DNA from: Demequina sp. NBRC 110051
Lineage (GTDB): Bacteria; Actinomycetota; Actinomycetes; Actinomycetales; Demequinaceae
NCBI RefSeq assembly: GCF_002090055.1
Contig: NZ_BBRH01000016.1
Location: 1-64,000, forward strand
DNA length: 64,000 nt
Direction: 5' to 3'
Shown here piece by piece: positions 31,602-33,920 of this stretch. Position 1 is the stretch's first letter, and every line of letters starts with the position of its first letter. The translations under genes were made by a program, and so were the position numbers. The notes beneath the pieces are model-generated. The model worked only from the letters and a program-made list of their open reading frames with translations. It was not told the DNA's origin and did no database searches.

Positions 31602-33920
31602 TTAGCTCAGCAACGCGGTCGTCCAGTGCGGGGTGTTCTCGCGGATCCACTCGGCGTCGCGCTCCCACACGGAGCCCACGCCCATCTCCCACAGCTCGAT
31701 CCACGGGGACTCCCCGGTGGAGCGCATGTGGTCCAGGTACTCGTACATCCGCTCGGAGCGCAGGCCCAACAGCGGCACGAGGCGCTGACGCTCGGCGGCC
31801 GAGAGGCCGTAGCCGTCGACCAGGTCGCGCATCCGGATCGCGGAGGTGACGATGTCGAAGCCCTTGCCGTGCAGCGGAGCGAAGGCGTGCACTGCGTGCG
31901 CGAGGTCCCACAGCCGGCTGCCGGGCGCGGCGGCGTCCCAATCGATCGCGACCAGCTGGCCGTCGTCGCGCACCACCAGGTTGGACGGCGCGATGTCCTG
32001 GTGGATAACGATGTTGCCGCCGGGGCCGGGCAGGCCGTCGAACCACATCGCGTCGGCCGGGGGCACGAAGGTGGCGAGGGCGTCGTGCATCTCGCGCAGG
32101 AACCGGCCGATCCGGGCAGGGTCGAGCGCGCTCGCGGGCGCGTCGGGGTGGTCGGCCCTGGTACCCGCGACCCATTCGACGAGGTGGCGTCCCTGGGCGT
32201 CCCAGCCAAAGCTGCGCGGGGCGCCGCGGAAGCCCACGCGCTCGAGATGCGTGAGCAGCGCGTGGAGGGCACCGGTGTAGGGGTCGGGGGCCTCGAGCGA
32301 GACCTCGCGCTTGGCGATGCGCATGGGCAGCGGCGCGGGAGCGTCATCGGGCTCGTGCGGGTCGGAGGCGCTGGGCGGGGCGTAGGCGTCGCCGGCCTGC
32401 GCGATGTCTCGCAGGAGCGACAGCGGGATCTCCTCGGTCGACGGGGAGAGGGGGGCGGCATTCTGGGCGGCCGATGCCGTCCACAGTGGCGATGCGGGCG
32501 TCGCCTGGTCTGGGGCCGCCTGTGCGGCCGGGGAGGCTGGCGCGTCCGGTGCGTCACGGTCGGGCGCAGTCGGGGTCTCGGCGGCGATCCAGGAGCGTGC
32601 GGAGCGCGTCGCGGCGAGGGCGCCGAAGGCCCCACCGAGCACGCTGGGCCGGTCAGGGTCGCGCGGGGACGGCAGGCGCGGCGGCTGCGGCTCGGGGTCG
32701 GCTGCGCCGGGCGCGGGCGCGGGCGCGGGCGCGGGCGCGGGCGCGGTGACCGCATCGTTCGCAGGGACGGACGCGGGAGCCGGTGGCGCTTGGGGGAACG
32801 GCTTAGCGGCAGCGGCCCAGTCGAAGGGGGCCGGCTCGGGCGGGCTGGTGCGCACGCGCGCGAGGGTGGGCGCGATCTCGCCGGTGGCGACCTTGGCGCG
32901 GTGCGCGTGGCGACCCAGGCGTGACATCCCCATGTAGGGCGGGTCGACACCGGCGGGCGCGGGCCAGGCGGGGGTGGCGATGCGAGGCAGGGGGCGAGCG
33001 TGGCGCCGGCCCTGCCAGCGGTCGATCATCCACTCGATGCCCTCAAGCGAATCGAGCAGGCGCGCCTCCGCATCGTCCGCGCTGTGGCCCTGCACCGCGA
33101 GCTGGCCGTGCCACCCGGAGGCCATCACCAGGTGCGCGAGCTTGCGGTCCATCCGCCCCGCACCCCAGGGGAGGATCTTGCGGCCGGTGGCCAAGGCATC
33201 GGCGTCCATCCCGGACAGGGCCAGCGAATACAGGTGAGGGCGCATGGCCTCGATGAGGTCCGCGAAGCGCGGCAGGTGGGAGTGCGCGTGCTGAAGTTGG
33301 TAGGCGAGGCCCACGTTCGTGAGGCCGCGCAGGACGAGCTCGTCGATGATGTCGAGCTGGTTCTCCGGCTCGCCGAACCAGCCCAGGTGGTTGGTGAGCG
33401 CGACGCGCATGCCGATGTCGTCGGCGAGCCTCGCCAGGGGCTCCAGGTGGTCGGCGGCGCGGCGCACGGTGGCCTGCTGCACCCAGGTGTTGAGGCGCTC
33501 GGGTGAGCCCTCCTGGCCGAACTCGATGCAGGTCCACAGGTCCGGAGTGAGGCCGCGCCGATGCATCTCGGTGAGGTAGACGCGCACGTGGGCGTCGACC
33601 ATGCCGAGCCCGCGGGCGGCGTCCTCGTCACTGGCGTCGGGCAACGGCATGGGGCACCACAGGCCGGTGACGGTGACGCCGTGGGCCTCGAGTGCCTCAA
33701 GCTCCTCGTGGAAGGCGAGGGTGTGTTCCTCGCGCCAGTCCCACACGATCCTGGTGATGCCGAGTCGCTGCAGCATACGGGCGCGCTGAAGGGGAGTGCG
33801 GGCGGGATAGTCGTAGGCGACAACCCGCGCCGCGGCGATCCGCGCGCGCTCGTGGCACGCGGCGCCGTGCTCGTGTCCCGGCTCAGCGCAGGCGTCGCCG
33901 GACTCCCATCCTTGGGTCAT
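31602..33920 (-). CDS. Fusion of xylose-isomerase-like TIM barrel and aminoglycoside phosphotransferase-like kinase (772 aa)
   Basis: Residues about 25-310 resemble sugar phosphate isomerase/epimerases: IEFGQEGSP, VALTNHLGWFGEPENQLDII, YQLQHAHSHLPRFADLIEAM and GRKILPWGAGRMDRKLAHL. A Pro/Ala linker (about 320-560) follows, with a tandem Ala-Pro stretch. Residues about 570-750 form an APH-type kinase: VIHQDIAPSNLVVRDDG carries the catalytic Asp and Asn, and LVAIDWDAAAPGSRLWDLAH the metal-binding Asp. Hence one chain could isomerise and phosphorylate a sugar-like substrate. I know of no standard family with this order. The start follows GAGGGG. Confidence 0.8.
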   Translation of the reverse strand: MTQGWESGDACAEPGHEHGAACHERARIAAARVVAYDYPARTPLQRARMLQRLGITRIVWDWREEHTLAFHEELEALEAHGVTVTGLWCPMPLPDASDEDAARGLGMVDAHVRVYLTEMHRRGLTPDLWTCIEFGQEGSPERLNTWVQQATVRRAADHLEPLARLADDIGMRVALTNHLGWFGEPENQLDIIDELVLRGLTNVGLAYQLQHAHSHLPRFADLIEAMRPHLYSLALSGMDADALATGRKILPWGAGRMDRKLAHLVMASGWHGQLAVQGHSADDAEARLLDSLEGIEWMIDRWQGRRHARPLPRIATPAWPAPAGVDPPYMGMSRLGRHAHRAKVATGEIAPTLARVRTSPPEPAPFDWAAAAKPFPQAPPAPASVPANDAVTAPAPAPAPAPAPGAADPEPQPPRLPSPRDPDRPSVLGGAFGALAATRSARSWIAAETPTAPDRDAPDAPASPAAQAAPDQATPASPLWTASAAQNAAPLSPSTEEIPLSLLRDIAQAGDAYAPPSASDPHEPDDAPAPLPMRIAKREVSLEAPDPYTGALHALLTHLERVGFRGAPRSFGWDAQGRHLVEWVAGTRADHPDAPASALDPARIGRFLREMHDALATFVPPADAMWFDGLPGPGGNIVIHQDIAPSNLVVRDDGQLVAIDWDAAAPGSRLWDLAHAVHAFAPLHGKGFDIVTSAIRMRDLVDGYGLSAAERQRLVPLLGLRSERMYEYLDHMRSTGESPWIELWEMGVGSVWERDAEWIRENTPHWTTALLS
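32709..32745 (-). repeat. GGGCGC hexanucleotide tandem repeat coding for Ala-Pro
   Basis: About six copies of GGGCGC run inside the linker of the TIM-barrel/kinase fusion (minus-strand reading alternates Ala and Pro). Gain or loss of units keeps the frame and changes linker length. Confidence 0.85.

Follow-up and report, generated by a model that had tools for sequence, protein, structure and literature searches.

A xylose-isomerase-like barrel fused to an APH-fold domain in Demequina, with non-standard active sites predicted in both halves

Introduction

The closest described relatives of the protein treated here fall into two superfamilies. One comprises TIM barrels such as D-tagatose 3-epimerase, YcjR, UlaE and IolE, which are characterized by conserved Glu/Asp/His/Glu alignment columns that we take to be the metal ligands of the superfamily. 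The other comprises APH-type proteins, among which ThrB, choline/ethanolamine kinase, the amicoumacin kinase AmiN and corramycin phosphotransferase possess a complete N-lobe and use ATP. The kinase fold has also been recruited for other than ordinary kinase chemistry in RosX and TvaE, which have lost the catalytic and Mg residues (PMC12291118).

Here, we describe a gene of the marine actinobacterium Demequina sp. NBRC 110051 which joins both folds in one polypeptide. It lies in a window of 64,000 nucleotides, i.e., the whole stretch of DNA that was analysed.

Results

Anatomy of the Fusion Gene

A first-pass annotation of the sequence had described a single 772-aa chain in which a barrel is connected to an APH-type domain via an Ala/Pro linker, and this architecture was confirmed by the open reading frame, Pfam, AlphaFold and Foldseek. 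The gene and its parts are as follows:

31602..33920, minus strand: fusion gene, stop codon included, 772 aa; one uninterrupted ORF with ATG start
32961..33863, minus strand: N-terminal xylose-isomerase-like TIM barrel, about aa 20-320 (Pfam PF01261, AlphaFold, Foldseek)
32331..32948, minus strand: Ala/Pro-rich linker (about aa 325-530), whose length varies greatly and which is under weaker constraint
32708..32746: tandem repeat (CGGGCG)6.5, from which the Ala-Pro run of the linker is translated
31605..32333, minus strand: C-terminal APH-fold domain with reduced N-lobe, about aa 530-772 (Pfam PF01636, AlphaFold, Foldseek)
31935..32003, minus strand: catalytic loop HQDIAPSN (aa 640-647) and metal-binding IDWD (aa 659-662)

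The APH profile PF01636 matches aa 541-680 with 28.5 bits (E 1.6e-6), which is above its cut-off of 23.2, and the AP_endonuc_2 profile PF01261 matches aa 74-294 with 28.4 bits (E 1.7e-6), just below its cut-off of 31.1, but reaches 32.1 bits once neighbouring segments are added. The best Foldseek matches and the structure models (pLDDT 94 and 91) agree with the domain assignment of both halves. As judged from fold and profile, one half is a member of the PF01261 and the other of the PF01636 superfamily, but neither appears to have the standard active site. The motifs highlighted in the first-pass annotation are located at aa 177 (NHLGWFGEPENQ), 211 (HAHSHLPRF) and 249 (ILPWGAGRMD) in the barrel and at aa 640 (HQDIAPSN) and 659 (IDWD) in the kinase-like half.

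The Barrel Half

The AlphaFold model of the barrel (aa 20-330; pLDDT 94.0, pTM 0.92) shows eight beta strands, and D-tagatose 3-epimerase, YcjR and UlaE were the best Foldseek matches in the PDB (E about 1e-9, TM 0.6-0.7). When the canonical Glu/Asp/His/Glu columns were placed by HMMER alignment to MJ1311 (with a gap adjoining the third column), they proved to be occupied by Y/T/A, N/Q/R, N/S and L/H/Q/I, respectively, in 63-64 of the 64 family members; the first three ligands are kept in none of these sequences and the fourth in a single one. The invariant or nearly invariant residues of the family comprise the polar positions D37, R41, D61, W88, W129, N177 and H178 as well as W181, E184, H211, H213, D258 and D283, and all of the invariants of the PVC-type barrel family (D37, R41, D61, W129, N177, G183, P185, G237, D258) are present. 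Alignment and model together show a non-canonical xylose-isomerase-like barrel that apparently lacks the canonical metal site. Many xylose-isomerase-like barrels have unusual sites, and an undetected metal site, made up for example of H178/H211/H213, is possible. The motifs previously read as isomerase/epimerase features do exist, but form a conserved signature of the barrel subfamily and are not isomerase catalytic residues.

When about 85,000 species were scanned, the matches after Demequina were almost all from Planctomycetota, Verrucomicrobiota and Hydrogenedentota, with 35-41% identity (best 80 of 248). The PVC barrel occurs either as a lone protein or at the N-terminus of larger proteins (up to about 2000 aa), where it is combined with cytochrome c, cupredoxin, LamG, HEAT, DUF6797 and PA14 modules (e.g., L031, L034, L061). 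These large proteins are probably secreted, and on visual inspection, the PVC barrel proteins L031 and L077 start with a putative signal peptide. No conserved partner that might give a functional clue emerged from a Pfam tally of 39 ORFs adjoining PVC barrels (ThuA three times, PQQ twice, 3-keto-disaccharide hydrolase once, others mostly single). Within the class, the only one of 395 sampled genomes to contain the barrel is that of the window itself, while one genome of the order outside the Demequinaceae also carries it.

Reality and Distribution of the Fusion

At least 17 further Demequina genomes encode the same chain in an open, stop-free frame, with homologous uninterrupted ORFs of 576-869 aa. 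A frameshift or chimera as the source of the fusion is ruled out by its open frame in many species with variable linkers, and the scenario of two separate genes joined here by a frameshift, which the first-pass annotation had considered, does not apply. Among 47 Demequinaceae genomes, the barrel is found in 22 and the fusion in 19. A close copy of the kinase half (at least 63% identity) is likewise present in 19 of the 47, in every case joined to the barrel and never barrel-free, and only three genomes contain a barrel without it, two as lone genes and one as a gene cut at a contig end. No other genus with the fusion was found as far as searched, and no paper on a barrel-APH fusion was found in the literature, in line with the earlier remark that the fold pair is unfamiliar. 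The gene clearly encodes a genuine fusion protein, which is restricted to Demequina as far as searched.

In comparison with the nearest species, NBRC 110055, dN/dS values of 0.11 for the barrel, 0.22 for the linker and 0.07 for the kinase-like half were obtained, indicating purifying selection on both folded halves, which is strongest on the kinase-like one.

Two genomes deviate from the usual appearance of the gene. In D. litorisediminis NBRC 112299 (L027/G024), frame breaks occur in the fusion, racemase, GNAT and dGTPase genes; since several genes of the locus are broken, they probably reflect a low-quality assembly and not pseudogenes. The barrel of G005 (L151/L013) is strongly diverged, no longer has the conserved His (NPPGWWGQPE) and continues into a linker of AAEPV repeats which runs to the contig end, where the kinase half is not seen. 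This barrel is possibly decaying or specialised.

The Linker and the Kinase-Like Half

Across Demequina, the linker varies from about 10 aa (G009, locus L009) to roughly 250 aa. A conserved GGA(A/F)GxLAA motif in the linkers of one clade looked tempting as a hidden N-lobe, but was rejected as a part of the kinase because the G009 linker comprises only about 10 aa.

The model of the kinase half (aa 513-772; pLDDT 90.7, pTM 0.87) shows an APH-type C-lobe without beta strands ahead of helix C, which is itself the first element of more than three residues. The Foldseek matches in the PDB are choline/ethanolamine kinase, corramycin phosphotransferase, homoserine kinase and AmiN (entries 3dxq, 8agy, 2ppq and 6sv5), with TvaE (8jsu) also among the close folds. 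For a comparison at the residue level, 18 fused copies were set against 16 close stand-alone relatives and 10 Demequinaceae paralogues. H640, D642 and N647 of the HxDxxxxN motif and D660 and D662 of the metal-binding DxD motif are intact in all 18 fused sequences, which upholds the first-pass reading of HQDIAPSN and IDWD as features of APH-like kinases. The GGN glycine loop, in contrast, is present in about 15 of the 16 stand-alone relatives and eight of the 10 paralogues, but in none of the 18 fused copies, and the ATP-anchoring Lys/Arg found in all 26 relatives is replaced by Ala in every fused copy. Residues D546, Y548, W573, R588, D590 and H678 are new invariants special to the fused clade.

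From these alignments and the model, the kinase half can be read as a C-lobe with intact Mg and catalytic residues that would lack the standard ATP cradle. This presumed loss does not look like decay, in view of the strong selection and of the new invariants acquired by the fused clade. Because D642, N647, D660 and D662 are strictly retained, ordinary ATP use could persist via a structural compensation that is absent from the model. The first-pass annotation had also considered that one half might lack active-site residues, and this turned out to be partly true of both, with the metal columns and the ATP cradle gone and the kinase catalytic and Mg residues intact.

The closest stand-alone APH relative of the kinase half (47% identity) is encoded in G120, which also has a lone barrel elsewhere in the genome. 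When 72 genera of the order were sampled, 21 of them yielded matches to the fused half with E values of at most 1e-20. Stand-alone proteins of about 250 aa make up an actinobacterial APH subfamily (L190-L204) with the pattern GGN..VVRVGDTVRKP..HNDLAPWN..IDWD. An antibiotic-resistance kinase was considered and rejected, as no NCBIfam resistance model matched at E up to 1; the best NCBIfam match of the fusion is thrB_alt (E 0.0026, 17.2 of 255.9 bits).

Locus and Origin

The fusion gene is flanked by the following genes:

34077..34781, minus strand: amino-acid racemase of the YgeA/Asp-Glu racemase type, upstream of the fusion gene and co-directional
30590-31576, plus strand: GNAT acetyltransferase (N-terminal) plus P-loop domain (C-terminal), itself a fusion; convergent neighbour
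34699-35307, plus strand: MerR-family regulator of the CueR/ZntR/CadR type, divergent from the racemase gene in most genomes

The racemase matches TIGR00035 with 189 bits (cut-off 93.1) and is encoded in 40 of 44 Demequina genomes. It is a conserved neighbour and a possible operon partner of the fusion, but the link may be positional only, since the gene also occurs in genomes without the fusion. The GNAT-plus-P-loop gene is conserved beside the fusion site in many Demequina genomes, and its P-loop domain shows a weak similarity, well short of the cut-off (E 2e-8), to the Gar/GrdA gentamicin-resistance ATP-binding protein. The MerR regulator was dismissed as an operon regulator of the fusion, because it is of the CueR/ZntR/CadR type and adjoins a metal P-type ATPase in L147; it probably serves metal export. 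Neither a resistance nor a sugar-catabolism operon was found around the fusion in the synteny comparison of the locus, and a promoter and terminator scan of the intergenic regions returned nothing, which says little at such G+C.

Wherever the flanks are readable, the fusion occupies one syntenic site between the racemase gene and the convergent GNAT-plus-P-loop gene. This site is empty in nine Demequina genomes (L154, L156, L157, L159, L162, L164, L166, L168, L174), contains only a lone barrel in two Demequinaceae (L147/L029, L150) and a lone barrel followed by the fusion in another two (L024, L149), while the remaining barrel-bearing genomes carry the fusion there, with the racemase and GNAT neighbours constant. 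The lone barrels stop at RIPEP(A/V)WPH, precisely where the fusions continue into the linker (RIATPAWPAP...), and in the tree, every fusion barrel falls into a single clade (support 100) that excludes the lone barrels of Demequina. Most simply, this pattern is explained by one fusion event, by which an APH-fold domain was added C-terminally to a lone barrel already located downstream of the racemase gene.

Discussion

Proposed Function and Alternatives

The anatomy and the origin of the fusion protein, taken jointly, can be stated with high confidence. As to its function, the best explanation as a whole, including the mechanism, is that of a non-canonical barrel fused to a C-lobe with non-classical chemistry, to which we assign a probability of roughly 40%. 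The protein would be a cytoplasmic two-module enzyme, whose barrel may bind a small polar metabolite in a pocket probably formed by conserved residues such as D37, R41, D61, W88, W129, N177, H178, H211 and H213; in the AlphaFold model, most of these candidate pocket residues follow the C-terminal ends of the strands. The APH C-lobe, held by a flexible tether and presumably not by a rigid channel, would then apply its Asp base and Mg2+ site to the ligand of the barrel or its product. The reaction would not be of the classical ATP-cradle type, but might transfer a phosphoryl group from another donor or from one bound in an atypical way, or might be a phospho-hydrolysis or lysis. That a Demequina-only fusion enzyme has indeed evolved a new chemistry of this kind, whether with an atypical phosphoryl donor, as a phospho-lyase/hydrolase or in another Mg-dependent reaction, is a tentative and rather doubtful proposition. 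The only hint to the role of the fusion that is conserved in its genetic surroundings is the adjacent racemase, and our guess for the substrate is an amino-acid-derived or polyol compound tied to this neighbour.

The protein may instead serve for binding or sensing, with both halves being pseudoenzymes, the barrel recognizing a ligand and the kinase-like half acting as a regulatory or peptide-binding module in the manner of RosX and TvaE. The standard catalytic parts missing from both halves and the presence of TvaE among the close folds of the kinase half would fit this, as would the precedent of RosX and TvaE themselves, which have the kinase fold but not the kinase residues and work as cyclases or protective proteins (PMC12291118). 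However, the Demequina domain keeps the catalytic Asp and the Mg ligands in 18 of 18 copies, which would be needless for a pure binding module, and we regard this alternative as an improbable, if serious, competitor.

A conventional bifunctional enzyme, acting as sugar isomerase or epimerase and as ATP-dependent small-molecule kinase in sequence, appears still less probable. Both folds would suit it, the catalytic HxD..N and DxD motifs are retained, and the fusion and the selection on it suggest that the halves work together. On the other hand, the glycine loop and the ATP-binding Lys/Arg are gone from every fused kinase, the four canonical metal ligands are lost in the barrel family, and a sugar-utilisation operon is absent at the locus. 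A simple isomerise-then-phosphorylate enzyme is therefore unlikely, since both halves have, as far as the alignments tell, lost standard parts of their active sites, and the earlier suggestion that the protein isomerises and phosphorylates a sugar or sugar-antibiotic is not supported. Finally, the barrel, the racemase or another protein might contribute the nucleotide-binding half in trans, so that an ordinary kinase would exist only in the complex. This could account for the strict conservation of the catalytic residues despite the absent ATP cradle and for the fused-specific invariants D546, Y548, W573, R588 and D590 around the expected N-lobe segment, but is very improbable, given that no candidate partner was found and that a kinase-like N-lobe sheet is, to our knowledge, absent from both the racemase and the barrel fold.

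The locus presents a clear case of gene fusion with intermediate stages surviving at one site, namely empty, lone barrel, barrel plus fusion, and fusion. It ties a barrel family otherwise seen in proteins of Planctomycetota and Verrucomicrobiota to an APH-fold domain, and could thereby offer a first handle on the ligand of this orphan PVC barrel family. The loss of the ATP cradle together with the retention of the catalytic residues may represent a testable case of a kinase fold changing its chemistry. The architecture appears to be new and is unreported in the papers searched.

Comparison With Known Systems

The unnamed PVC TIM-barrel proteins, e.g., that of Singulisphaera acidiphila (L031), share 35-41% identity over the entire barrel and the same invariants with the fusion barrel, but many of them are fused to redox or lectin-like modules and none was found fused to an APH domain. 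They also carry Y176/N208/N236, where the Demequina fusions mostly have T/Q/S. With the D-tagatose 3-epimerase/YcjR/UlaE/IolE superfamily (PF01261), the fusion barrel has the TIM-barrel fold in common, but differs from D-tagatose 3-epimerase and IolE in the replacement of all four canonical metal-ligand columns. Among the APH-fold proteins, the stand-alone actinobacterial kinases of about 250 aa (L190, L192; GGN..VVRVGDTVRKP type) show 33-47% identity across the domain and have the catalytic loop and the DxD motif in common with the fused half; they possess the GGN loop and the Lys/Arg, whereas no fused copy does, and the PWN of their catalytic loop is changed to PSN in the fusions. ThrB, choline/ethanolamine kinase, AmiN and corramycin phosphotransferase share the APH C-lobe fold at 14-18% identity. 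Compared with RosX and TvaE, the Demequina half shows the opposite pattern, keeping the catalytic and Mg residues and apparently having lost the ATP cradle instead.
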